Shown piece after piece: positions 37,443-54,978 of a DNA stretch of 64,000 nucleotides. The stretch comes from Nakamurella aerolata (GTDB lineage Bacteria; Actinomycetota; Actinomycetes; Mycobacteriales; Nakamurellaceae): NCBI RefSeq assembly GCF_013002705.1, contig NZ_JABEND010000002.1, positions 372,001-436,000 on the forward strand. Reading direction: 5' to 3'. Made by a program: the position numbers and the translations under genes. Under the pieces are notes generated by a model. It did no database searches. It was not told where the DNA came from and saw only the letters and a program-made list of their open reading frames with translations. Numbering within the stretch: the stretch's first letter is position 1; every line of letters starts with the position of its first letter.

Positions 37443-38842
37443 TCGGTTCGCCCCGCCGCCCGGCAGGTCCAGCGTCGCGCCCGTCCACCGAGCCGACGCG
37501 GGCGGCCGCAGGGCAACGCCGCCGCGGTGTGGCCCTCGTTGCGGCCGGCTGTGCTGCGGCGCTGCTGCTGACCGCATGCAGCTCCGACAGCGGCTCCAAT
37601 GCCGCTGCCACCCCCGCCGCCGGCGGTACGAGCGGAGCCGCACCAGCTGCGGCAACGGTGGCCGGTCCGGCCGGATCCGTTGCCGCCCAGTCGGTTGCCG
37701 GCTCGTCCGCCGCTGCGCCGGCCGGGGCAGGTGCTGCGACGCAGGCGTCTGCGACCGCTGCCGGCGCGCCGGCCACCGTCAAGATCTCGATCACCGCGGA
37801 CGGCGGCTGCGCCGTTGATCCGGTGACGGTGCCGGCCGGCCCCGTCACCTTCAAGATCGCCAACCTCGACGCCACCGCCGTCAACGAGGTGCACCTGATG
37901 GACGGCGACCGGATCCGTGGCGAGCGCGAGAACCTGGCGCCGGGCTTCGACTCCGAGTTCTCGGCGACGCTGGACGGGGGCTCGTACCAGATCTACTGTC
38001 CGGGCGCGGTGACCGAGAACCAGCCGTTCACCGTCACCGGGAAGGCGGCCACCAGTACCGGCGACGTGGCGCAGCAGCTGCAGCAGGCGACCGTCGAGTA
38101 CGCCGGTTACGTCGACGACCAGGCCGGATTCCTGGTGGAGGCGGTGGCAAAGCTGCAGAAAGCCTTGCAGGGCAAGGATCTTGCAGCCGCGCAGCAGGCC
38201 TACGCCGCCGCCAGACCGTTCTACGAGCGGATCGAGCCGGTTGCCGAGTCGTTCGGCGACCTCGACCCCGACATCGACGCCCGCGACGGCGACGTGCCGG
38301 CCGCGGGGTGGAAAGGCTTCCACCAGATCGAGAAGGCGTTGTTCACCGACAAAAAGATCGCAGCCGCAACACCTTTCATTGCTGAGCTGGTGAGCAACGT
38401 TGCCAAGCTGAAGCAGCTCACCGCGCAGCTGGCGGCCGACACCAAGGCCGGAAACGGCAAGGGCTACAAGCCGGACGAGGTCGCCAACGGTGCCGCGTCA
38501 CTGCTGGAGGAGGTGCAGAAGACGAAGATTTCCGGCGAGGAGGAGCGCTACTCGCGCATCGACCTTGTTGACTTCGCCGCCAACGTCGAGGGTTCGCAGC
38601 AGGCGTTCGCGGCGTTGGAGCCGGCGCTGAAGACCATCGACCCGCAGCGGCCCGCACCGATCACCGCGGCCTTCGCCGCGCTCAACAAGCAACTCGACAA
38701 GCACGCGGACACCAAGGCGCTCGGTGGGTATCAGCCGTACGACAAGCTCACCCAGGCCGACATCAAGCAGCTGTCCGATGCCCTGCTGGCCGTTCAGGAG
38801 CCGCTGTCGCAGGTTTCCGCGAAGGTGGCGTCCGCAGGGTGA
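37439..38842 (+). CDS. efeO: EfeO iron-uptake lipoprotein (cupredoxin plus M75/imelysin-like domain)
   Basis: Extracytoplasmic iron-binding partner of EfeU, 467 residues. A basic N-terminus leads to a lipobox (LLLTACSS, Cys47), so it is membrane-anchored. An Ala/Gly/Ser-rich linker precedes a cupredoxin-like domain (VKISITADGGCAVDPVTVPAG to YQIYCPGAV). The C-terminal M75 domain contains the HxxE motif in GWKGFHQIEKALF. The ATG lies in the efeU stop (ATGA) and the TGA overlaps the efeB GTG. Confidence 0.94.
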   Translation: MIGSPRRPAGPASRPSTEPTRAAAGQRRRGVALVAAGCAAALLLTACSSDSGSNAAATPAAGGTSGAAPAAATVAGPAGSVAAQSVAGSSAAAPAGAGAATQASATAAGAPATVKISITADGGCAVDPVTVPAGPVTFKIANLDATAVNEVHLMDGDRIRGERENLAPGFDSEFSATLDGGSYQIYCPGAVTENQPFTVTGKAATSTGDVAQQLQQATVEYAGYVDDQAGFLVEAVAKLQKALQGKDLAAAQQAYAAARPFYERIEPVAESFGDLDPDIDARDGDVPAAGWKGFHQIEKALFTDKKIAAATPFIAELVSNVAKLKQLTAQLAADTKAGNGKGYKPDEVANGAASLLEEVQKTKISGEEERYSRIDLVDFAANVEGSQQAFAALEPALKTIDPQRPAPITAAFAALNKQLDKHADTKALGGYQPYDKLTQADIKQLSDALLAVQEPLSQVSAKVASAG

Positions 38843-40317
38843 GCACCCCGAAACTTCCCGAGCCGCCTGGCGAGCCGGCACCGGCGTCCGGCAACGACAA
38901 CCGCGCCGGCGGCAGCGATTCGCCGCCCGAACCCGGTAGATCGGTTGCCCCGTCCCGGCGCAGCTTGCTGTCCGGAGCTGCGCTCGGCGCGGCCGGGCTG
39001 CTGATCGGCGGCGGAAGCGGGTACGCGGTGGGCAGGTCGAAGCCGGCCGAGGTGGGCGCGGCGACCAACCCGGTGCCGGCCGGATCCTCAGGTTCGGCAC
39101 CGGCCGCGTCCGAAGCATCATCAGGTGCGGTGTCGTCCGCCCGGCCGGGCTCCGGCGGCGGCGCCGACGCGGTGAACACCGCGGGTGCCGACGACGCGGT
39201 GGTGCCGTTCTACGGCGAGCGTCAGGCCGGGGTGACCACCCGGCAACAGGAACAGATGATGTTCGCCGCTTTCGACCTGACCACCATGGATCCGCTTGCC
39301 GTGCAACAACTTCTGGGACGTTGGGCCGCTGCCGCCGCCAGGTTCACCCAGGGCAAGCCGGTCAGCGGCGGCAGCACCCCGGCGAACCGTCCGCCGACCG
39401 ACACCGGGGAAGGCATTGATCTCGGGGCACATTCACTGACCATCACCGTCGGGTTCGGCGCATCCATGTTCGACGAGCGGTTCGGCCTGCGGGACAAGAT
39501 GCCGGCCGCGCTCCGGCCGTTCGGGAAGCTGCCGGGTGAGGGCGACATGCGGCCAGAGCTCACCGGCGGGGACCTGTGTGTTCAGGCCTGCGCCGACGAC
39601 CCGCAGGTGGTGTTCCATGCGGTCCGCAACCTGACAAGGATCGCCCGCGGCACCGCGGTGCTGCGCTGGTCGCAGCTGGGGTTCGGCCGCGCCTCCGCCA
39701 CCGGAACCGGGCAGACAACGCCGCGAAACCTGTTCGGCTTCAAGGACGGCACCCGGAACCTGCACGCCGACCAGACCGCCGACATCGATCGGTACGTGTG
39801 GGTGGACGACGCCGCGACGGACCAGCCATGGATGGTGGGCGGGACGTATCTGGTGGCCCGCAAGATCGCCATGGTGATCGAGTCATGGGATGCCGACTTC
39901 CTGGCAGACCAGGAACGGATCTTCGGGCGCCGCAAGGACTCAGGGGCACCGCTGTCCGGTGGACAGGAGTTCACCGTCCCCGATTTCCACAAGACCGGAG
40001 CCAACGGCAAACCGCTGATCGACGTGCGCTCCCACATGGCGTTGGCAGCCCCCGAGAACAACAACGGCGTGAAGATCCTGCGCCGCGGTTACAACTACAC
40101 CGACGGCCAGGATCCGGTGAGCGGCCGGCTGGCGGCCGGACTGTTCTTCGTCTCGTTCCAGCGGGATCCGGCGCAGTTCAAGGCCTTACAGACCAAGCTC
40201 GGCGCCGGCGACCTGATGAACGAGTACGTCACCCACCTCGGCGGCGGTACCTTTGCCTGTCCGCCCGGCGTTCACTCCGCGGGCGACTGGTTCGGCAAAC
40301 GGCTGTTCGCCGGCTGA
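38839..40317 (+). CDS. efeB: EfeB deferrochelatase/DyP-type peroxidase, Tat-exported
   Basis: Heme peroxidase of the Efe iron system, 492 residues. A long Pro/Ser-rich leader carries the twin-arginine motif in PSRRSLLSGAALGAAG at about residues 33-48, so it should be exported folded. The DyP signature is FGFKDGTRNLHAD (distal Asp), with VGGTYLVARKI and MALAAPENNNGVKILRRGYNY later. The start is a GTG overlapping efeO. Its 3' end overlaps the convergent kinase gene by 46 bp. Confidence 0.94.
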   Translation: MSTPKLPEPPGEPAPASGNDNRAGGSDSPPEPGRSVAPSRRSLLSGAALGAAGLLIGGGSGYAVGRSKPAEVGAATNPVPAGSSGSAPAASEASSGAVSSARPGSGGGADAVNTAGADDAVVPFYGERQAGVTTRQQEQMMFAAFDLTTMDPLAVQQLLGRWAAAAARFTQGKPVSGGSTPANRPPTDTGEGIDLGAHSLTITVGFGASMFDERFGLRDKMPAALRPFGKLPGEGDMRPELTGGDLCVQACADDPQVVFHAVRNLTRIARGTAVLRWSQLGFGRASATGTGQTTPRNLFGFKDGTRNLHADQTADIDRYVWVDDAATDQPWMVGGTYLVARKIAMVIESWDADFLADQERIFGRRKDSGAPLSGGQEFTVPDFHKTGANGKPLIDVRSHMALAAPENNNGVKILRRGYNYTDGQDPVSGRLAAGLFFVSFQRDPAQFKALQTKLGAGDLMNEYVTHLGGGTFACPPGVHSAGDWFGKRLFAG

Positions 40318-44676: not shown

Positions 44677-45657
44677 TCAGTCGTCCAGGTCGGCGAGGAA
44701 CTGCCGGGCCGGCACAAAGAACGTCACGCCGGTGACGGCCTTGGAGAAATCGAGGATCTTGTCGTGCAGCGGCGGCGGATCGCCGATGAACATCCGCTCC
44801 AGCATCTTCTCCGTCACCCACAGGTGCCGGCTGTAGCCGATGAAGTAGGTGCCGTACTCGCCGCGTCCGGGGACAGCGAAAGGCATGTTGTCGCGCAGGA
44901 TGTCGTGCTCGCCGTTTTCATCGGTGATGGTGCAGAGCGTCTTGTGCGACTTCTGCTGGTCCGCACCGGCGTCGGGCAGCTCGACGTTGTCGAACTTGGT
45001 CCGCCCGATGATGTTCTCCTGCTCCTCGGTCTTCTGCTCGCGCCAGCCGGCGAGGTTGTGCAGGTACTTCTGGATCACCACATAGCTGCCGCCGGTGTAG
45101 TCGGGATCTTCCTCACCCACCAGCGTCGCCGCCGGCAGCGACAGCCCGATCGGATTCGCGGTGCCGTCGATGAACTCCAGCAGGTCGCGACCATCGAAAT
45201 AGCGGAAGCCGGCCACGTCGTCCACTCCGGTCACCGCGTCGCCGAAGGCCTCAAGCAGGAGCTTCTCGAACTCGACGATCAGGTCCATCGAATCGGCCCG
45301 CAGGTGGTACAGCAGATCGCCCGGAGTGGCGACGGCGGTGTGCGTCTGCCCCTTGATCTCCTTGAACGGACGCAGCTCGGCCGGCTGCGGCTTGCCGGTG
45401 GCCCGCTCCCACACCCGCTGGCCGATACCGACGTTGGCGGTGAAGAACTGGCGGTCGGCACGGATCTGGATGTCCTTGATCAGGTCTTCGGTGCTGGCCA
45501 GCACCGACCGGGCCTTGGCGGCGGCCGGGTCCCCGTCGTTGATGGTGAGCACCAGGAACCCGGCGGCCCGGGTCAGCGGCGCATCCACATACTGCGGCTC
45601 GGTGTCGATCGCCCGCTCGCTCGGCGGCACGGGACTGGTGGTCGCGGAGTTGTCCAT
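44677..45657 (-). CDS. DyP-type heme peroxidase (cytoplasmic, B-type)
   Basis: Dye-decolourising peroxidase of 326 residues without a signal peptide. The distal-site motif EFIDGTANP (Asp164), GGSYVVIQKYLHNL, the SHKT segment and GTYFIGYSR are visible. It has no C-terminal encapsulin-targeting tail and no encapsulin gene is near. This is the second DyP in the window, the first being exported EfeB. It is divergent from the sialidase gene across 288 bp. Confidence 0.93.
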   Translation of the reverse strand: MDNSATTSPVPPSERAIDTEPQYVDAPLTRAAGFLVLTINDGDPAAAKARSVLASTEDLIKDIQIRADRQFFTANVGIGQRVWERATGKPQPAELRPFKEIKGQTHTAVATPGDLLYHLRADSMDLIVEFEKLLLEAFGDAVTGVDDVAGFRYFDGRDLLEFIDGTANPIGLSLPAATLVGEEDPDYTGGSYVVIQKYLHNLAGWREQKTEEQENIIGRTKFDNVELPDAGADQQKSHKTLCTITDENGEHDILRDNMPFAVPGRGEYGTYFIGYSRHLWVTEKMLERMFIGDPPPLHDKILDFSKAVTGVTFFVPARQFLADLDD

Positions 45658-45855: not shown

Positions 45856-45909
45856 TTGTGGGCGCTCCCGAAGCCGCCTACGGTACGAACGCAGGACGTC
45901 CCACGTCCT
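45856..45909 (+). promoter_or_regulatory. Sialidase promoter with 17-bp operator
   Basis: A -35-like TTGTGG (45856-45861), a 17-bp spacer and a -10-like TACGGT (45879-45884) are followed by a perfect palindrome, AGGACGT-CCC-ACGTCCT, at 45893-45909, just past the expected start point. The same palindrome and geometry occur at 48119-48170. Binding of the FadR-family regulator encoded at 47283-48011 is inferred. Confidence 0.75.
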
Positions 45910-45945
45910 ATCTACCCGTGTTCGTGCTCAACGAGGAGCTGTCCG

Positions 45946-47259
45946 ATGAACTCTCGCAAGATCAGCGTTGTGTCCGTGGTCGCCGCGGTGACCGCGGTGT
46001 GCGCCACCGCCGTCATCGCCCCGGCCTCGTCGGTGACGGGTGCCCCGGCGGCTGCCGACGCCCGATCCGGCAGCGCAGGTGCGCAACCGTTGCGGGCCGA
46101 CCGAAGCGCCGATGGCGGGCAGCTGGTGGCCGCCAAACCCGGTGGCCGATGCACCCAGTCGGTGCCGTACCCCGCCGGCGACAACGGTTATGCCAGCTTC
46201 CGCATTCCCGCGGTGGTCACCACCACCCGTGGGACGGTGCTCGCGTTCGCCGAGGGGCGGCACGCCGGCACCGCGGACTCCGGCGACATCGACGTGGTGC
46301 TGAAGCGATCGTCCGACGGTGGCTGCAGTTGGTCCGAGTTGGCAGTGGTCAGCGACGGCGACGGCGACACGCGCGGAAACCCCGCTCCCGCAGTCGATCC
46401 GGCGACCGGAGCGGTGGTCCTTGTCACCACCTTCAACGGCGGCAACGTCACCGAGAAGCAGATTCTCAAGGGCGAGGTGGCCGCCGAGGATTCCCGCAGA
46501 GTGTTCGTGCAGACCAGTGCGAACGACGGGGTCAACTTCACCGCTCCGCGAGAAATCACCGCATCGACCAAACGCGCCGATTGGCGCTGGTATGCCAGCG
46601 GTCCAGGGCACGCCACGGTACTGACCACCGGGCCGCACCGGGGTCGCATCGTGGTGCCGGCCAACCACTCGATCGCCCCGCCGGCCGGGTCCGGCGATCA
46701 GGGCGACGAAGCAAAGTATTACGGCGGCCACAGCATCTACAGCGACGATCGCGGCAAGACCTGGCAGATCGGTTACGTCGACGACAATCCCGACGGTTTC
46801 ATCAACGTCAACGAGACCGCGGCGACGCAGTTGCTGGACGGCCGGATGTACTTCAACACCCGCGAGCACAACGGCAGTGCGCCCGGCAACCGGGCCGACG
46901 CCTATTCCACCGACGGCGGTCAGACGTTGGTGGCGCCGTTCGCCCCGCAGGCCACCTTGGTCGGGCCGGTGGTGCAGGGCAGTGTGCTGCAGGTCAAGGG
47001 TGGTGGAAAGTCCCGCTCCCCGTTGTTGTACTCGGGCCCGGCGGATCCGGGGGCGCGGGCGGCGATGACCATCCGGGTGTCCCGCGATGCCGGTGTCACC
47101 TTCAGCGACCCGTACCCGATCTCCGGCCTGCCGGCTGCTTACTCGGATCTGGTGCAGCTCAACAACTCCACCATCGGGCTGCTGTACGAGACCGGAGCTC
47201 GCACGTCCACCGACACCATCGTCTTCCGCAAGATCGACCTCGCCGAGCTGATTCGCTGA
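45946..47259 (+). CDS. Secreted sialidase (GH33)
   Basis: Exo-alpha-sialidase of 437 residues that releases terminal sialic acids. A Sec signal peptide (residues 1 to about 33) precedes the catalytic six-bladed propeller. Family residues are present: the FRIP arginine (85-88), EGRHAGTADSGDID with the acid/base Asp, Asp boxes (SSDGGCSW, SDDRGKTW, SRDAGVTF), the Glu in NVNETAATQL, NTREH with the second Arg, and the nucleophile region AAYSDLVQL. GAGGAG lies before ATG 45946. It is the only gene of its transcript before the convergent regulator gene, and appears co-regulated with the importer at 48264. Confidence 0.93.
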   Translation: MNSRKISVVSVVAAVTAVCATAVIAPASSVTGAPAAADARSGSAGAQPLRADRSADGGQLVAAKPGGRCTQSVPYPAGDNGYASFRIPAVVTTTRGTVLAFAEGRHAGTADSGDIDVVLKRSSDGGCSWSELAVVSDGDGDTRGNPAPAVDPATGAVVLVTTFNGGNVTEKQILKGEVAAEDSRRVFVQTSANDGVNFTAPREITASTKRADWRWYASGPGHATVLTTGPHRGRIVVPANHSIAPPAGSGDQGDEAKYYGGHSIYSDDRGKTWQIGYVDDNPDGFINVNETAATQLLDGRMYFNTREHNGSAPGNRADAYSTDGGQTLVAPFAPQATLVGPVVQGSVLQVKGGGKSRSPLLYSGPADPGARAAMTIRVSRDAGVTFSDPYPISGLPAAYSDLVQLNNSTIGLLYETGARTSTDTIVFRKIDLAELIR

Positions 47260-47282
47260 GCCGGTGTCCGGGCCGCGGTCGA

Positions 47283-48011
47283 TCAGGTCGCCGAGCCGTT
47301 GGCGGCGCCGACCGTGTGCCCGGCCCGGCCGCCGTAGGGTCCTGCCTTGGTCCGCCGCCTGACCTCCTCGAAGTGCGCGTGCACGGCGGCTTCGGCGAGA
47401 TCCGGGTCGCCACTGGCGATTCCGTCGATGATGCGTTGGTGGATGGCGGCAGCCACCCGCCTGGGCCTTGGCACCTCGAGTTCGGCCTCGGCCATCCGGT
47501 AGACGTCCCAGAACAGCCCGATCAGATCACTTGCCAGCTCGACGCCGGCCGCGTTGCAGAGCACCTCGTGGAAGTCGCGGTCGGCCTTGCTGGCCGCCTC
47601 CACCGTGGTACCCCGCATTCGCCGGACGCAGTCCTGCAGCTCGGCGAGCATGGCTTCGTTGCGCTCCAGTGACACCCGGCGGGTGAGCTCAGTCTCGATG
47701 ATCTCGCGCACCTCGAGCAGGTCGGGCAGCCGGCGCTGTCCGGTCGCCTCGCCTGCCCTGGTCCGGAACAGCAGCCACGGCTGCAGCGCCGAAGTGCTGG
47801 CGGAACCGACGAAAGTCCCGTGGCCGTGGCGGATCTCGACAATGCCGAGCGCCTGCAGCGCCTTCACCGACTCGCGGATGGAGTTCCTGCTGACCCCGAG
47901 GTCGTTCATCAGGCTGAGCTCGGTGGGCAGCGGCGCTCCTGGCGGCAGGCCACGTTCCACTATCAGGTTGGCGATGGCTCTCGCCAGTTCCTCGCTTCGC
48001 TGCGGTCGCAT
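47283..48011 (-). CDS. GntR/FadR-family regulator of the sialidase-importer regulon
   Basis: The 242-residue regulator has a GntR winged helix (LPTELSLMNDLGVSRNSIRESVKALQALGIVEI, then GHGTFV) and a helical FCD ligand domain with metal-binding positions (ADRDFHEVL, VHAHFEEV). Its place between the sialidase and importer genes, with identical operators at both promoters, points to a NanR-like role in sensing sialic acid or a breakdown product. It is divergent from the importer operon. Confidence 0.9.
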   Translation of the reverse strand: MRPQRSEELARAIANLIVERGLPPGAPLPTELSLMNDLGVSRNSIRESVKALQALGIVEIRHGHGTFVGSASTSALQPWLLFRTRAGEATGQRRLPDLLEVREIIETELTRRVSLERNEAMLAELQDCVRRMRGTTVEAASKADRDFHEVLCNAAGVELASDLIGLFWDVYRMAEAELEVPRPRRVAAAIHQRIIDGIASGDPDLAEAAVHAHFEEVRRRTKAGPYGGRAGHTVGAANGSAT

Positions 48012-48118
48012 CTGTCTGCCTTCCGTGACACCGGGCGCCGGTGGGTAGCCGCGACGGCAGCGCCCGCGCCGCTCATCCTAGGTGCGCGGCCGAGCGGCAC
48101 CCGGCTGTGCCGTAGGCC

Positions 48119-48170
48119 TTGACCTGAGGTCGCGCGCCTCCTACTGTCCACGTAGGACATTGGACGTCCT
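48119..48170 (+). promoter_or_regulatory. Importer operon promoter with 17-bp operator
   Basis: TTGACC (48119-48124), a 17-bp spacer and TACTGT (48142-48147) form a good promoter. AGGACAT-TGG-ACGTCCT at 48154-48170 is the sialidase-gene operator with one base changed, again just downstream of the predicted start point. It is located 93 bp before the binding-protein gene and between it and the divergent regulator gene. Confidence 0.75.
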
Positions 48171-48263
48171 ATGCCCAGCGATACCGGACTGGCCACCGCG
48201 ACGTCCACCAGTCGACGGAGACAGCCGAATTCTGCGGCCCCCGCGGATCCTCAGGAGATTTCA

Positions 48264-49877
48264 ATGACGAACCATCTTCGCGAGTCCACCCCGGTGATGA
48301 GCCGGCGTTCCATGCTCAGGTACGCCGGTCTGCTCGGCGTCGCCGCCGGGATCGGGACGACACTGTCGGCGTGCGGCGGACCCAAGTCCACCAACGCGAC
48401 CGGCGAGCAGAAGTCCACCATCACCGCGGTGATCGGCTACGGCAACAACCAGAGCTGGGATCCGACCCAGACCGCTTCGGCGTTCTCCATGGCGGCCATC
48501 CTGCACAGCTACGAGGCACTGGTGGAGGGCGACCCGATCACCAGGGAGCCGTATGCCGCGCTGGCAAAAGCGCTGCCGGCCGACGTCTCCGGTACGAGCC
48601 TCAAGTTCGAACTGCGCGACGGCGCCAAGTGGCACGACGGCAAACCCGTCACCGCCGACGACGTCGTCTTCACCTACCAGCGCGTGCTCGACCCCAAGGA
48701 GAACGTCGCGATCCGCGCCTACTTCTCGCTGTGGCTCCAGGAGGTCAAGAAGGCCGGCGACAACGCCGTCGAGTTCGTGCTCAAGTTCCCGTTTCCCTAT
48801 GTGCTGGAACGGATTCAGATCGCCAAGATTATGCCGAAGCACGTCTTCGATGGGAAGTGGGACGACGCCACCGCCGGCAAGGTGGTCGGCTCCGGCCCCT
48901 ACAAGGTCACCGAGCAGGCCCCGCTGAGCCACACCTCGTTCGAGAAGTTCGCCGACTACAACGGCCCGCGGCCGGCGGTGTTCGAGACCATGCTGTGGAA
49001 GTCGATCGTTGAGGCGCCGGCTCGCGTCGCCACCATCTCCGGCGCCACCCCGCAGGCGCAGATCGCCGAGAACATCCCCGCCGAGAACGTGGCCGCGCTA
49101 ACCAAGGCCGGTCGCACGGTGGAGCAGGCAGAGGGGATGAACATGCTGTGGATGCTGTTCAACACCGCCAAGGCACCTTTCGACGACAAGCTGGTCCGGC
49201 AGGCACTGCACTACGCGATCGACTCCGACAAGATGGTGAAGATCGGGCTGAAAGGTGCTGGCACGCCGGCAACCTCGTTCATCAACCCGGCACTGGCCGC
49301 CTCCCAACCGGCCGCGCTCGACTTCGGCTACGACCCGGACAAGGCCAAGGCGTTGTTGAAGCAGGCGGGGGTGTCGAACCTGAAGGTCACCCTCAATACG
49401 TCCAACACCACCGTGGTCGCCTCCTGCGTCAACGTGATCAAAGAAGGCTGGGATGCCATCGGCGTCAACACCACCCTCGACGCTGCGGACACCAAAGCAT
49501 TGTTCTCCAAGCTGGACGGCGGCGCCGACTTCCAGGTGGTGGTGTCCACCGGCAACCCGCAGCAATTCGGCGTCGACCCTGACCTGCTGGTCCGGGCGTT
49601 CTACGGGCGCGAATCGTTGTGGTCCAAGACCTATGCCCGCTGGACCAGCAAAGACGCCGAGGCGTTCTATGCGCTGCAGGACACCGCGGCGAAGGAGCCG
49701 GACGAGACCAAGCGCACCGCCCTGGTCAAGAAGCTGATGGACGAGCTGAGCACCCAGGCCGTCTTCTACCCGATCGTCTTCACCAAGATGGGCACCGCAT
49801 GGGACCCGAAGAAGATCAGCGGGGTGAAGGCCCAGGGCTACCCCGGTATCAACTTGCTCCAGGTCAAGACGGTCTGA
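48264..49877 (+). CDS. ABC transporter substrate-binding lipoprotein (family 5, Sat-like)
   Basis: Extracytoplasmic solute receptor of the peptide/nickel-type family 5, 537 residues. A twin-arginine-like start (SRRSMLRYAGLLG) runs into a lipobox with Cys37 (TLSACGG). The family signature KFELRDGAKWHDGKPVTADDV follows. In this setting the ligand is probably a sialic acid or sialylated sugar rather than a peptide, by analogy with the SatA receptor of Haemophilus ducreyi. CAGGAG lies 8 nt before ATG 48264. It is the first gene of a five-gene operon. Confidence 0.88.
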   Translation: MTNHLRESTPVMSRRSMLRYAGLLGVAAGIGTTLSACGGPKSTNATGEQKSTITAVIGYGNNQSWDPTQTASAFSMAAILHSYEALVEGDPITREPYAALAKALPADVSGTSLKFELRDGAKWHDGKPVTADDVVFTYQRVLDPKENVAIRAYFSLWLQEVKKAGDNAVEFVLKFPFPYVLERIQIAKIMPKHVFDGKWDDATAGKVVGSGPYKVTEQAPLSHTSFEKFADYNGPRPAVFETMLWKSIVEAPARVATISGATPQAQIAENIPAENVAALTKAGRTVEQAEGMNMLWMLFNTAKAPFDDKLVRQALHYAIDSDKMVKIGLKGAGTPATSFINPALAASQPAALDFGYDPDKAKALLKQAGVSNLKVTLNTSNTTVVASCVNVIKEGWDAIGVNTTLDAADTKALFSKLDGGADFQVVVSTGNPQQFGVDPDLLVRAFYGRESLWSKTYARWTSKDAEAFYALQDTAAKEPDETKRTALVKKLMDELSTQAVFYPIVFTKMGTAWDPKKISGVKAQGYPGINLLQVKTV

Positions 49878-49890
49878 GAACCCTTACGCC

Positions 49891-50850
49891 ATGGTCGTTG
49901 TCGTACGGATGCTGGTTGGCCGCATCCTGGCCCTGATCCCGCTGATCCTCGGCGTTGTGCTGTTCGTGTTCGTTGTCATGGAGTTCGCGCCGACCGATCC
50001 GGCGCTGGCCGCATTCGACGGCGCCAACGCCACCGCCGAGCAACTGGAACAGTTCCGCGAGGCCAACGGGCTCAATGATCCGCTTCCGGTGCGCTACGTG
50101 CGTTTTGTGGTGGCGCTCAGCCACGGCGACTTCGGCACCAGCGTGATCACCAAGCAGCCGGTCTGGGGCACGATCGCGTCGGCGCTGCCACTGACCATTC
50201 AGCTGACGGTGCTCGGACTGCTGATCGCCCTGGTTCTCGGGGTGGCGCTCGGAGTGATCGCCGCGCTGTTCCGCGGCCGTTGGCCGGATCAGCTGATCCG
50301 GCTGGTGTCGCTGGCAGGTGTTGCGGCGCCGGCATTCTGGATCGCGTTGCTGCTGGTGCAGTGGCTGGCGGTGGGCAAGGGCTGGTTCCCGAGCAGCGGG
50401 TACGTCAACCCGGCCGACTCGATCTCCGGTTGGCTCAACTCCATGACGCTGCCGGCGGTCTCGCTGGCGCTGCCGGTGGCCGCGCAGCTGGCGCGGATCG
50501 TCCGCACCTCGATGGTCGAGGAACTCGACAAGGACTACGTCCGCACCGCCCGCGGCGGCGGGCTGCCGCCGGTGGTGGTGGTCGGCCGGAACGTCCTGCG
50601 CAACGCGCTCGTCACGCCCCTGACGGTGTTGGGCCTGCGGATCGGTTACCTGGTGGGCGGCGCGGTCGTCATCGAGACCATGTTCGCGCTTCCCGGCATG
50701 GGGCAGAACATGATTCAGGCGGTACTGGACGGCGACACCGCCAAGGTGCAGGGCTTCGTCATCGTGATTGCGATCGGATTTGTGTTGGTGAACCTGGTGG
50801 TGGACGTGCTCTATCTGATTGCCAACCCGCGGCTGCGGAGTCGGACATGA
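49891..50850 (+). CDS. ABC transporter permease (DppB type)
   Basis: Six-helix permease of 319 residues. It has the N-terminal helix VGRILALIPLILGVVLFVFVV, the cytoplasmic EAA-type loop (ARIVRTSMVEELDKDYVRTARGGG) and GGAVVIETMFALPGMGQNMI. It forms the membrane channel with the permease half of the next protein. The ATG overlap (ATGA) with the next gene indicates coupled translation. Confidence 0.92.
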   Translation: MVVVVRMLVGRILALIPLILGVVLFVFVVMEFAPTDPALAAFDGANATAEQLEQFREANGLNDPLPVRYVRFVVALSHGDFGTSVITKQPVWGTIASALPLTIQLTVLGLLIALVLGVALGVIAALFRGRWPDQLIRLVSLAGVAAPAFWIALLLVQWLAVGKGWFPSSGYVNPADSISGWLNSMTLPAVSLALPVAAQLARIVRTSMVEELDKDYVRTARGGGLPPVVVVGRNVLRNALVTPLTVLGLRIGYLVGGAVVIETMFALPGMGQNMIQAVLDGDTAKVQGFVIVIAIGFVLVNLVVDVLYLIANPRLRSRT

Positions 50851-52826
50851 TCCGGCCAGGGCTCACCAGGCGACTGTCCCGGCCCGGCATCAGGTTCCGG
50901 CGGCTGCGGTGGAGCTCGTGGGTTGCCATCGGCGTGCTCGCCGTCATCGCGCTGGCGGCGTTGCTGGCGCCGCTGGTGGCCACGCACGACCCGAATGCGT
51001 TGGGAACAAGCGTGTCCGGCCCGAGCACGCAGCACTGGCTCGGCACCGATTCCGACGGTCGCGACATCTTCTCCCGATTGGTGTACGGCAGCCGCTGGTC
51101 GCTGACCATCGGTCTGGGCGCCACCCTGATCGCACTGGTGGTCGGCGCGGCCGTCGGCGCGTTCGCGGCCACCTCCAAGCGGTGGGCCGACGAGCTCACC
51201 ATGCGCATTCTCGATGTGGTGATGGCCTTTCCGGGGATCGCGCTGGCCGCGGTGCTGGTGGCGGTGTTCGGCCGCTCCATCCCGGTGCTGATCGGCGCGA
51301 TCGCGTTCCTGTACATGCCATCCATCGCGCGGGTGGTACGCGCCAACGTGCAAGCTCAGTACAGCGAGGATTACGTCCAGGCGGAACGGCTGATCGGGGC
51401 GAGGCGGATCTACATCATCGCCAAGCACGTCGCGGTGAACTGCGCCGCCCCCGTCCTGGTGTTCTGCACGGTGATGGTGGCTGACGCCATCGTGTTCGAG
51501 GCATCGTTGTCGTTCATCGGCGCGGGAATCCAGCCGCCGAACCCGTCGTGGGGATCGGTGATCGCCGACGGCAAGAACATGGTGCTGACCGGCGGTTGGT
51601 GGGCAACGCTGTTCCCCGGCCTGCTGATCCTGATCACCGTGCTGTCGCTGAACGTGTTGTCCGAGGGTATTTCCGACGCCTGGGCGGCACCGTCGGCACG
51701 GACCGCTCGGGCTGCGGCAGCGGCCAAGGCCGAGGTGGTCGAAGAAGGCAAGGAGAACCGCGAACCGGTGCTGCCGATCGCGGGGCTGCAGCAGACCGGC
51801 GAGCGGCTGGCCCGCACCGCAAGGGATCTCAGCGGAGCGGAAAACATCCTCGAGGTGGCCGACCTGTCGATCCGCTTTCCCCACCGGCACAACGGTGTAC
51901 AGGTGGTGGAGAACATCTCGTTCACCGTGCGCAAGGGCGAGGTGCTCGGGTTGATCGGCGAGTCCGGCTGCGGCAAGTCGTTGACCGCACTCTCGGTGAT
52001 GGGGCTGCAGCCGCGGGAGGCCGAGGTCACCGGCACCATCACCTTCGCCGGGCGCAACCAACTCGCGCTGTCCGCCAGGGCCCGCCGGGCTCACCTCGGG
52101 CACGACATCGCGATGATCTATCAGGACGCGCTCAGCTCGCTGAATCCGGCGATGACGATCGCCGCGCAGCTCAAACAGTTCATCCGCCGCAAGGGAACTC
52201 GCAGCGCGACCGAACTGATGGAGCTGGTGAATCTTGACCCGGAGCGCACCCTGCGGGCGTATCCGCACGAGCTGTCCGGTGGGCAACGGCAGCGCGTGCT
52301 GATCGCGATGGCGCTGTCCCGCGACCCGAAGCTCATCGTCGCGGACGAGCCGACCACGGCGCTGGACGTGACGGTGCAGGCGCAGGTGATGAAACTGTTG
52401 CTGCGCTTGAAGGATGAGCTGGGATTTGCGCTGATCGTGGTCTCCCACGACCTCGCGTTGGTATCCGAGATCGCCGACCGGGTGGTGGTGATGTACGGCG
52501 GTCAGGTCGCCGAGGCCGGCAGTACCGCCAGCGTGGTGGGGACACCGCAGCACCACTACACCAGGGGACTGCTCAGCGCCGTGCTGTCGCTGGAACAGGA
52601 GCGCCGGCCGCTCACCCAGATCAAGGGTGTGGTGCCGTCGCCGGCGAACTTCTCGCCCGGCTGTCGATTCTCCGAAAGGTGCCCGGCGGCCGAGCGGCTG
52701 TGCCGTGAGCAGGAGCCGGCCCCCGACGGCGATCCGCTGCAGCATTTGGTGGCCTGCCACTTCCCGGCTGAAACCGACTCGGCGGCAAAGGTTCTCGCCG
52801 GAACCGGCGGGGGTGACCGGCGATGA
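50847..52826 (+). CDS. Fused ABC permease (DppC type) and ATPase (DppD type)
   Basis: One 659-residue chain joins a membrane domain (about 1-290: LGTDSDGRDIFSRLVYGSRWSL, the EAA loop QAERLIGARRIYIIAKH, SLSFIGAGIQPPNPSWG) to an ATP-binding domain (about 330-650). The ATPase has Walker A GESGCGKS at about 371, signature LSGGQRQR at about 476, Walker B LIVADEPTTALDV, and the C-terminal cysteine motif CRFSERCPAAERLC. A charged Ala/Glu linker connects them. The reading frame is continuous, with no stop or frameshift. The same fusion is what I recall for SatC of the H. ducreyi sialate importer, which supports the substrate inference. Confidence 0.92.
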   Translation: MIRPGLTRRLSRPGIRFRRLRWSSWVAIGVLAVIALAALLAPLVATHDPNALGTSVSGPSTQHWLGTDSDGRDIFSRLVYGSRWSLTIGLGATLIALVVGAAVGAFAATSKRWADELTMRILDVVMAFPGIALAAVLVAVFGRSIPVLIGAIAFLYMPSIARVVRANVQAQYSEDYVQAERLIGARRIYIIAKHVAVNCAAPVLVFCTVMVADAIVFEASLSFIGAGIQPPNPSWGSVIADGKNMVLTGGWWATLFPGLLILITVLSLNVLSEGISDAWAAPSARTARAAAAAKAEVVEEGKENREPVLPIAGLQQTGERLARTARDLSGAENILEVADLSIRFPHRHNGVQVVENISFTVRKGEVLGLIGESGCGKSLTALSVMGLQPREAEVTGTITFAGRNQLALSARARRAHLGHDIAMIYQDALSSLNPAMTIAAQLKQFIRRKGTRSATELMELVNLDPERTLRAYPHELSGGQRQRVLIAMALSRDPKLIVADEPTTALDVTVQAQVMKLLLRLKDELGFALIVVSHDLALVSEIADRVVVMYGGQVAEAGSTASVVGTPQHHYTRGLLSAVLSLEQERRPLTQIKGVVPSPANFSPGCRFSERCPAAERLCREQEPAPDGDPLQHLVACHFPAETDSAAKVLAGTGGGDRR

Positions 52827-54052
52827 CGGACGTCGTTGCCGCGCCGCCTGGCGCAGCCGCCGCCACCGGTTCCGAACCGCTGCTGCGGGTGCAGGGTGTG
52901 CACGTGGTGCACCGGATTCGCTCGCGCAAGCTGATCGGGCACGGCAACGTCTACGCGCTCACCGATGCCAACCTGAGCATCGCGGCAGGGGAGACCGTCG
53001 GCATTGTCGGCGAGTCCGGGTGCGGCAAATCGACGCTGGCCAAGGTGATTGTCGGCCTGCAGCGGCCGACCGAGGGTGCGGTGAACTTCCGCGGCACGTC
53101 GCTGTGGGAGATGAGCCAGAAGCAGCGGGCCCGGCAGTTCGGCCGCGAGGTGGGGATGATCTTCCAAGATCCGTCCACCGCGTTGAACCGGCGGCTGTCC
53201 ATCGCCAAGATCATTGCTGATCCGATGGACGTGCACGGCGTCGGCAGCAGCAGGCAACGCCGAGAACGCGTCCAGGAACTGATGGCGCTGGTCGGACTGC
53301 CGACCAGCGTGGCCGATGCGGTGCCGGGCCAGCTGTCCGGCGGACAGCGACAGCGGGTGGCGATCGCCCGCGCGCTGGCGCTCGACCCTGCGTTGCTGGT
53401 GGCGGACGAACCGACGTCCGCGCTGGACGTTTCGGTGCGCGCGCAGATCCTGAACCTGTTGATGGACTTGAAGGATCGGCTCGGGCTGGCCATGGTCTTC
53501 GTCTCGCACGACATTCAGACGGTGCAGGCGATGAGCGACCGGATCGTCACCATGTACCTCGGCCGGATCGCAGAACAGGCACCGGCGAACGACATCCCGG
53601 ACCGGGCCTACCACCCGTACAGCAGGGCGCTGTTCTCGGCGACGCCCAGCCTGCTGCGTCCCACCGAGCCGATCGTGCTGTCCGGAGCGGTGCCGTCGGC
53701 CACCAACCCGCCCAGCGGCTGCAACTTCCGCACCCGCTGCTGGAAGGCGACCGATGAATGTGCCAACGCCTTGCCCCCGCTCACCAGGGTCGGGGCCGCC
53801 GCGCAGGCGGACGAGACCGCAGAACCGTTGCCGCTGCACGAGTATCGCTGCTGGCATCCGGAGCTGCCCGACGCTCCGTCGGACGCCGCCGAACCATTGA
53901 AGACCGATTCGACCGACACTCACTCGGCGAATACGCACTCGGCGGATACCCACGCGTCTGATGCGCAATCTCCGAGCGCCGAATCTCTGAACGCCGAATC
54001 TCTGAACGCCGAGTCACCCAAGGCCGGATCACTGAAGAAAGAACAAGCATGA
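52823..54052 (+). CDS. ABC transporter ATPase (DppF type) with repetitive tail
   Basis: Second ATPase of the importer, 409 residues. Motifs are Walker A GESGCGKST, the signature LSGGQRQRVAIARAL, LLVADEPTSALDV, and the oligopeptide-type C-terminal CNFRTRCWKATDEC. The last 50 residues are Ser/Asp/Ala/Glu repeats encoded by two sets of 15-bp tandem units, near 53920-53955 and at 53978-54007. It starts and ends in ATGA overlaps with the neighbouring genes. Confidence 0.93.
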   Translation: MTDVVAAPPGAAAATGSEPLLRVQGVHVVHRIRSRKLIGHGNVYALTDANLSIAAGETVGIVGESGCGKSTLAKVIVGLQRPTEGAVNFRGTSLWEMSQKQRARQFGREVGMIFQDPSTALNRRLSIAKIIADPMDVHGVGSSRQRRERVQELMALVGLPTSVADAVPGQLSGGQRQRVAIARALALDPALLVADEPTSALDVSVRAQILNLLMDLKDRLGLAMVFVSHDIQTVQAMSDRIVTMYLGRIAEQAPANDIPDRAYHPYSRALFSATPSLLRPTEPIVLSGAVPSATNPPSGCNFRTRCWKATDECANALPPLTRVGAAAQADETAEPLPLHEYRCWHPELPDAPSDAAEPLKTDSTDTHSANTHSADTHASDAQSPSAESLNAESLNAESPKAGSLKKEQA

Positions 54053-54978
54053 TGACACCTGCTTTCCGCGGCATCATCCCGCCGGTGTGCACGCCGCTGC
54101 ACGACGATTTCAGCGTCGATGTGGTGTCGTTGCAGCGGGCACTTGAGTTCCTGCTCGACGCCGGTGTCGACGGGGTGTTCGTGCTCGGGTCCACCAGCGA
54201 GGTGGCCTACCTGCCGGATGCCCAGCGCCGCACCGTGATCGAGACCGCCGTGCGGCAGGTGGCCGGCCGGGTGCCGGTGCTGGCCGGCTGCATCGACATG
54301 ACGACGTTGCGGGTGGCCGAGCACATCGCGGTGGCGCAGGACGCGGGCGCCGATGCCGTTGTGGTGACCGCGCCGTTCTACACCAGGACGCACGTTGCCG
54401 AGATCGAGCAGCACTTCCGGTTGCTGCACGCGGCGACGGGCCTGCCCATCTTCGCTTACGACATCCCGGTGGCGGTGCACTCCAAGCTGGACACCGCGAT
54501 GATCCTGAAGTTGGCGCAGGAGGGAGTGCTTGCCGGGCTCAAAGACTCCAGCGGGGACGATTCGTCGTTCCGATATGTGTTGCAGGGCAAGAAGGATCGC
54601 GGCCTTGACGGGTTCGCCGTCTTCACCGGTTCTGAGCTGGTGGTCGACAATCTGTTGAGCATCGGCGCCGACGGCGCCGTGCCCGGTCTCGGCAACGTCG
54701 ACCCTGCGGGCTACGTCACCATCTTCGACCGGGTCCGCTGCGGCGACCAGGCCGCCGCGAACGCCGAACAGGACAGACTGCTGCGGCTGTTCACCATCGT
54801 CGGCATCGGCGACCCGGCCCGCATCGGCCGCAGCTCGGCCGCGCTCGGCGCCTTCAAGTACGGGATGAAGCTCCGCGGCGTGATCGACAACGCCGTCCTC
54901 GCCCCGCCGCAGCTGCCGCTGACCGCGGACGAGCAAGTCCGCATCAAGGCCGGTCTGGTGGAAGCCGGCCTGCTCTGA
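54049..54978 (+). CDS. DapA/NanA-family lyase, probable N-acetylneuraminate lyase
   Basis: Class I aldolase of 309 residues. It has the pyruvate-site motif LGSTSE (residues 46-51), Tyr137 in FAYDIP and the Schiff-base Lys165 in AGLKDSSGD. Members of this family cleave sialic acid, or make dihydrodipicolinate or keto-sugar acids. Operon position after a sialate-type importer suggests release of pyruvate and N-acetylmannosamine. The family-typical GSTGE reads GSTSE, and the residue after the Tyr motif differs from classical NanA, so another keto-acid substrate is possible. Genes for the kinase and epimerase of the pathway are absent here. Confidence 0.82.
   Translation: MMTPAFRGIIPPVCTPLHDDFSVDVVSLQRALEFLLDAGVDGVFVLGSTSEVAYLPDAQRRTVIETAVRQVAGRVPVLAGCIDMTTLRVAEHIAVAQDAGADAVVVTAPFYTRTHVAEIEQHFRLLHAATGLPIFAYDIPVAVHSKLDTAMILKLAQEGVLAGLKDSSGDDSSFRYVLQGKKDRGLDGFAVFTGSELVVDNLLSIGADGAVPGLGNVDPAGYVTIFDRVRCGDQAAANAEQDRLLRLFTIVGIGDPARIGRSSAALGAFKYGMKLRGVIDNAVLAPPQLPLTADEQVRIKAGLVEAGLL

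Follow-up and report, generated by a model that had tools for sequence, protein, structure and literature searches.

Control of sialic acid (nan) genes by regulators named NanR is already known from Corynebacterium glutamicum and Escherichia coli. The C. glutamicum protein (Cg2936) was reportedly described by Uhde et al. in 2016 as a GntR-type repressor of sialic acid genes that is released by GlcNAc-6P and ManNAc-6P, and its motif can reportedly be written as AMGY-MTG-ATGT-CWK-ATGT-MTA. Another study adds nagB to the genes repressed by NanR in this organism (PMC8861201). For E. coli NanR, one report describes an operator of three GGTATA direct repeats that lies downstream of the polymerase site, a response to Neu5Ac, and cooperativity that needs a 32-residue N-terminal extension (PMC8012715). 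Extra half-sites near the centres of GntR operators are known as well: 13 groups of the FadR subfamily have weaker ones 7 to 12 nt from the site centre (PMC4494728). Among the papers listed by our literature searches, which covered few subscription journals, we recognised none as describing an ACGT-type array in the actinobacteria studied here.

The window, i.e., the whole stretch of 64,000 nucleotides of the Nakamurella aerolata genome that was analysed, contains a sialidase-like gene, the gene of a FadR-family regulator (R1) and genes for an ABC importer and an aldolase (Table 1), which very probably belong to one sialic acid (nan) regulon. An initial annotation had proposed that the same 17-bp operator, a palindrome around a free N3 centre, follows the promoter boxes of both the sialidase and the importer genes, and that the FadR-family gene between the two promoters encodes the likely repressor. 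Both sites are present, one as a perfect palindrome (AGGACGTCCCACGTCCT, operator 1) and the other with a single-base deviation that gives ACAT instead of ACGT in the left half (AGGACATTGGACGTCCT, operator 2). Read by position, the -35 and -10 boxes are 17 bp apart at both promoters and the 17-mer begins 8 bp after the -10 box of the sialidase promoter and 6 bp after that of the importer promoter; the latter was missed by our automatic pattern because the array is counted there from its outermost core. The gene between them indeed has the domains of a FadR-family regulator. The description as a 17-bp palindrome with free N3 had to be replaced, since the operator unit is part of an array of A[CT][AG]T cores with a 7-bp period, separated by triplets that are mostly NGG or CCN.

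Table 1. Operators, promoter-like boxes and genes, numbered along the window except for R2, which is numbered along contig C12.
Feature	Coordinates	Strand	Basis and remarks
Sialidase promoter-like boxes	45856-45884	+	TTGTGG 45856-45861, 17 bp, TACGGT 45879-45884; read by position, re-found by automatic pattern
Operator 1, 7-bp-period array	45889-45913	+	ACGC.AGG ACGT.CCC ACGT.CCT ATCT; inner palindrome 45893-45909; outer cores degenerate
Sialidase (NanH-like)	45946-47259	+	Pfam BNR_2 E=1.5e-32; start resembles secretion signal by eye
R1, GntR-FCD regulator, candidate repressor (NanR-like)	47283-48011	-	Pfam GntR (PF00392, E=1.6e-17) and FCD (PF07729, E=1.7e-20)
Importer operon promoter-like boxes	48119-48147	+	TTGACC 48119-48124, 17 bp, TACTGT 48142-48147; read by position
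Operator 2, 7-bp-period array	48150-48174	+	ACGT.AGG ACAT.TGG ACGT.CCT ATGC; inner 17-mer 48154-48170
Solute-binding protein (SBP), peptide/nickel (SBP_bac_5) type	48264-49877	+	PF00496 E=1.6e-69; ATG at 48264 after AGGAGA
ABC importer permease	49891-50850	+	PF00528 E=5e-37
659-aa frame, reads as permease-ATPase fusion	50847-52826	+	Frame and homologues
ABC importer ATPase	52823-54052	+	PF00005 E=1.2e-35, oligo_HPY
DHDPS-family aldolase, NanA by context	54049-54978	+	PF00701 E=1.6e-45
R2, second GntR-FCD regulator	C12:497842-498561 (= L042:7843-8562)		Beside nanKE

Against the NCBIfam neuraminidase model NF052328 the sialidase scores 41.5 bits (cut-off 900). The aldolase stays below the cut-offs of all nanA and dapA models and is scored higher by dapA, so that its naming as NanA is a call from context. 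Elsewhere in the window, two frames (38839-40317 and 44677-45657) resemble Dyp-type peroxidases by eye, the second of which reads away from the sialidase gene and begins around 200 bp from the sialidase promoter.

The two Pfam domains of R1 place it in the FadR subfamily, and the GT-N3-AC geometry of operators of this subfamily is found as ACGT-N3-ACGT in operator 1, while the ACAT half of operator 2 indicates that the GT is not strict. An Asp and three His that we take to be the ligands of metal-type FCD domains are found in R1 as D144, H148, H191 and H213 and recur in 97/97, 97/97, 96/97 and 95/97 aligned homologues, respectively; judged by these residues, R1 would fit the metal-binding FCD group. 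The best NCBIfam match of R1 is the NanR model PRK03837 (92.5 bits, below the cut-off of 260), and residues 4-218 align with residues 31-249 of E. coli NanR (PDB 6on4; E=5.8e-9). The helix-turn-helix starts at residue 6, and because residue 4 is already the counterpart of NanR residue 31, the N-terminal extension is almost entirely missing from R1. R1 therefore differs from E. coli-type NanR in its sub-threshold model score, in nearly lacking this extension and in operators with ACGT-type cores instead of GGTATA direct repeats. The two are alike as GntR-FCD proteins with a metal site in the FCD domain, putative in R1, and a short tandem-repeat operator placed behind the polymerase site, which in the case of R1 would likewise serve to repress sialic acid genes.

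Exact matches to the operator are very rare. We found AGGACRTNNNAYGTCCT twice in the window and in none of 100 dinucleotide shuffles. The initial annotation had reasoned that many random occurrences within coding DNA would speak against an operator; the exact 17-mer AGGACRT-N3-AYGTCCT is present in the whole own genome (4.35 Mb, 22 contigs) at operators 1 and 2 only, so that for exact matches this objection fails. Looser matching gave no excess, with 3 places at up to 3 mismatches in the window (6.5 expected from shuffles) and 9 places at up to 2 mismatches in the own genome (29 for the reversed control), and such weak matches with 2 or 3 mismatches were dropped as evidence. In the own genome, the exact 15-bp core GGACRTNNNAYGTCC occurs three times, always ahead of a sialic acid gene and the third time at C12:498728, with the reversed control also reaching 3; across the 17 genomes of the family the numbers are 12 for the core and 9 for the control. 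As this core is not enriched in the genus by itself, it is position and context that carry the evidence. When three cores are required and the spacers are left free, the only matches in 4.35 Mb are operator 2 and the nanKE operator described below (reversed control 0); this three-core pattern misses operator 1 on account of its degenerate outer cores. Another one-mismatch 17-mer place (C6:25937) overlaps the start of an MFS carrier-like frame, has no sialic acid gene recognisable by eye within 3 kb (locus L003) and probably arose by chance.

The genome scan proposed in the initial annotation revealed a third operator, with one mismatch to the 17-mer, 78 kb from the sites in the window. It lies between the gene of a second GntR-FCD regulator (R2) and nanK-nanE-like genes that encode a ROK-family kinase (PF00480 E=2e-46) and then NanE (PF04131 E=4.5e-42). 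Its array reads TCAT.AGG ACGT.TGG ACGT.CCG ACAT and stands 6 bp behind a promoter-like pair (TTGACG-18-TACCGT), in the same layout as at the other two promoters. The kinase scores below the cut-offs of curated nanK models, so that the name nanK rests on context. NanK and NanE act downstream of NanA in sialic acid breakdown, and the motif thus pointed to the part of the pathway that the window lacks. A few kb from nanKE, at C12:492273-495545 (L042 2274-5546), we noticed a sugar-type ABC importer (an SBP_bac_1 protein and two permease-like frames); a scan of that stretch found no operator match belonging to it.

With a second paralogous regulator beside nanKE, R1 is a likely candidate repressor that has a competitor: the regulon of the initial annotation is strongly supported, and its assignment of the repressor is plausible without being unique. 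We see a substantial chance, if somewhat short of even, that the operators are read mainly by R2 or by R1 and R2 alike. R2 adjoins the third operator, the two proteins are 37% identical with similar recognition helices (SRNSIRE in R1, ARNTVRE in R2), and some relatives (L011, L017 and L114) also have two paralogues that are each beside an array; however, R1 is encoded divergently from the importer with operator 2 in between, and relatives repeatedly show the same arrangement, with an R1-like gene and an array ahead of the importer. R1 and R2 may share sites, divide the work between them or form mixed dimers.

We analysed two sets of relatives. For the first set, a search of genome contigs with R1 gave 32 loci with 71 regions upstream of NanH, SBP and regulator genes. 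Two loci, L015 (whose regulator is identical to that of L013) and L038 (a near copy of L036), were left out of the counts of these 71 regions, of the sets of 35 and 46 sites and of the 97 regulator homologues below, and of the helix, promoter-pair and permutation analyses. L036 and L038 are near-identical regions whose records carry different genus names (Rhodococcus rhodnii and Kibdelosporangium aridum), so that mislabelling or contamination may affect one of the two. The exact core is present in 42/71 upstream regions (18/35 for the regulator, 16/26 for NanH and 8/10 for SBP genes), a number that rises to 55/71 when up to one mismatch is allowed. When the half-site was permuted in all 360 ways, more than 2 exact matches in the 71 regions were reached only by near-synonyms of the motif. 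A first run of 300 permutations had included outliers of 13 exact matches and of 42 with one mismatch, which turned out to be RGACGT, GRACGT and GGRCAT, half-sites that overlap in part with the motif; below them, no permutation had more than 2 exact matches.

The second set comprised 397 genomes of the same order, 44 of which encode a regulator homologue at E<=1e-28, with up to 63% identity to R1 outside its own genome; 57 stretches were taken around these and earlier same-genus matches. The same element recurs many times in related clusters, here between the regulator and importer genes, and such clusters span other actinobacterial genera. In the regulator tree, branches are long and the position of R1 is not firm. 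The ABC importer is replaced at three loci (L104, L110 and L121) by a gene for a sialate symporter (647-729 bits, cut-off 604), which adjoins the regulator and aldolase genes or the regulator gene alone. L110 and also L113 have no strict core pair, and a degenerate palindrome is found in its place.

Across both sets, the array is present in all 34 of 34 regions upstream of importer SBP genes. A promoter-like pair, searched as TTGnnn-16/18-TAnnnT just upstream of the array, was found for 23 of these regions in sense orientation (22 with TTGACC), for none in antisense and for 0.09 in shuffles. For sialidase genes, the array is present in only 24/37 upstream regions and is preceded by a promoter-like pair in 4 of these 24 (0 in antisense, 0.075 in shuffles).

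In the first set, the 3-bp centre is NGG or CCN in 35/35 distinct exact-core sites. Around 46 sites chosen by their match to GGACRTNGGAYGTCC, extra A[CT][AG]T cores appear on the left with genus-weighted frequencies of 0.45 at 7 bp and 0.20 at 14 bp and beyond the second core with 0.34 at 7 bp and 0.10 at 14 bp, while no other offset within 28 bp exceeds a frequency of 0.02. When spacers are ignored, a core-N3-core unit lies upstream of 81/97 regulator homologues (1.6 in shuffles), and the remaining 16/97 lack a strict core pair in this region. Other core spacings from 0 to 12 are seen for 0 to 7 of the 97 homologues except for spacing 10, which corresponds to the 14-bp register and reaches 42. 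Runs of at least 3 strict cores (3 or 4) were found for 40/97 homologues compared to 0.04 in shuffles.

These 97 homologues had been picked by protein similarity alone, and the frequent array upstream of their genes makes it unlikely that the sites would be activator sites or serve another regulator with the FadR-family gene as a mere neighbour. Other regulators of sialidase genes do exist, since one study predicts a GlxR site upstream of nanH in C. pseudotuberculosis (PMC3022926), but a position just past the -10 box suits repression better than activation.

The triplets in 150 adjacent core pairs are NGG/CCN in 120 cases, CAG/CTG in 16, CTA/TAG in 3 and other triplets in 11. They vary together with one residue of the recognition helix: N43 is found in 58/68 regulators with NGG/CCN arrays and S43 in 10/13 regulators with CAG/CTG-type arrays. 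Six regulators with H43 fall in the NGG/CCN class and the spacer classes follow clades, so that we treat this link between spacer and helix as a lead only. We tentatively put forward, as a generalisation that may well fail, a common operator grammar for the NanR-type regulators of actinobacteria: A[CT][AG]T cores would stand every 7 bp, at least two dimers would assemble on them without the N-terminal arm of E. coli NanR, each ACGT core would be common to neighbouring dyads, and the triplet (NGG/CCN or CAG/CTG) would differ by lineage as a code that the recognition helix reads (with Asn43 or Ser43 in R1 numbering).

Compared to the C. glutamicum system, the locus is alike in that regulator and operators adjoin sialic acid genes (in the window, at the nanKE locus and in relatives), with a GntR-type repressor, or candidate repressor in our case, encoded beside an ABC importer operon. 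The reported C. glutamicum motif would also fit the 7-bp register, though with other spacers. In contrast, N. aerolata has NGG/CCN triplets, a sialidase gene in the importer-linked unit, nanKE 78 kb away and two paralogous regulators. In a genome of the same order that is Corynebacterium-like in size and GC content only (L140; 2.9 Mb, 56% GC), the importer and aldolase genes recur together with a regulator of 33% identity, and an ACAT.CTG ATGT pair precedes the importer. With FadR-subfamily operators in general (TKGT/ACMA), the arrays share the GT-N3-AC spacing (PMC4494728), but have ACGT, ACAT or ATGT cores, extra cores that are often of full strength, a strict 7-bp register and a constrained triplet. 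What our analysis adds for this GC-rich group is thus the operator as a 7-bp array with constrained triplets, its position at promoters and the second paralogue.

Matches to the motif are commoner, genome for genome, where the regulator is encoded. The asymmetric core GGACRTNGGAYGTCC is present in 25/44 regulator-positive and 62/353 regulator-negative genomes (Fisher p=7e-8, with genomes counted without regard to relatedness), with 43 and 74 matches in total, respectively. Regulator-positive genomes contain 14 places distant from the regulator gene, and 7 of the 10 that we inspected adjoin sialidase, NanT-type or NanM-like genes. NanH is the neighbour at five of them (L162, L164, L168, L169 and L170). 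At L167, the operator adjoins a DHDPS gene and, in place of the ABC importer, a gene for a sialate:H+ symporter (NF003024, 664 bits, cut-off 604), and at L165 the neighbouring gene is NanM-like (PF24996 E=5.5e-43; below the cut-off of the NCBIfam NanM model). No such gene was seen at L163, L166 and L192, where genes were compared only with the proteins of the window and of nanKE.

Chance similarity or a dispersed repeat could be suspected from the regulator-negative genomes, which still have about 0.2 GGACRTNGGAYGTCC matches each and in which nine of 30 inspected loci lie within long inverted repeats. However, none of these 30 loci has a sialidase match and only one (L156) has at least 3 cores, every exact 17-mer and 15-mer match in the own genome stands before a sialic acid gene, and chance is contradicted by the conservation of the motif in relatives and by the counts of the three-core pattern and of promoter pairs, which together leave this explanation extremely improbable.

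The inverted repeats are long, near-perfect and centred on a GGACRTTGGAYGTCC core (L154 at 5893 and 5965, L155, L157-L161, L171 and L172, in genomes G084, G305, G102, G066 and G078). They occur in several genomes of one family with no sialic acid genes nearby and explain many of the cases in which a regulator-negative genome has several matches. L156 (6143-6215, genome G266) has two arrays 58 bp apart, one of them with the 3 cores, although no regulator homologue is listed for this genome; the frame next to these arrays looks like a GntR-type regulator of a different kind.

We therefore consider it highly probable that the sites are operators of a sialic acid regulon read by a NanR-like GntR-FCD dimer of R1, possibly also of R2, that would repress these genes until a ligand is bound. 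Such a dimer would recognise A[CT][AG]T cores 7 bp apart in GT-N3-AC geometry. At the sialidase, importer and nanKE promoters, the array just behind the -10 box would lie over the expected transcription start, so that the bound protein would block RNA polymerase. The distance of 6 to 8 bp between the -10 box and the operator at these three promoters, about at the presumed transcription start, fits such steric repression. By analogy, the signal is likely a sialic acid breakdown product, which would bind in the metal-type FCD domain and release the regulator, and this release would jointly induce the sialidase, the importer, NanA, NanK and NanE.

The motif can serve as a search key for sialic acid regulons of Actinomycetota, since by itself it led to genes for a sialidase, a sialate symporter and a NanM-like protein at a distance from any regulator gene. 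It also lends itself to studying how periodic operators are read by GntR dimers and how spacer letters may change in step with helix residues. For the biology of these organisms, one switch for both sialidase and importer suggests a way in which free-living actinobacteria may use sialylated glycans as forage.
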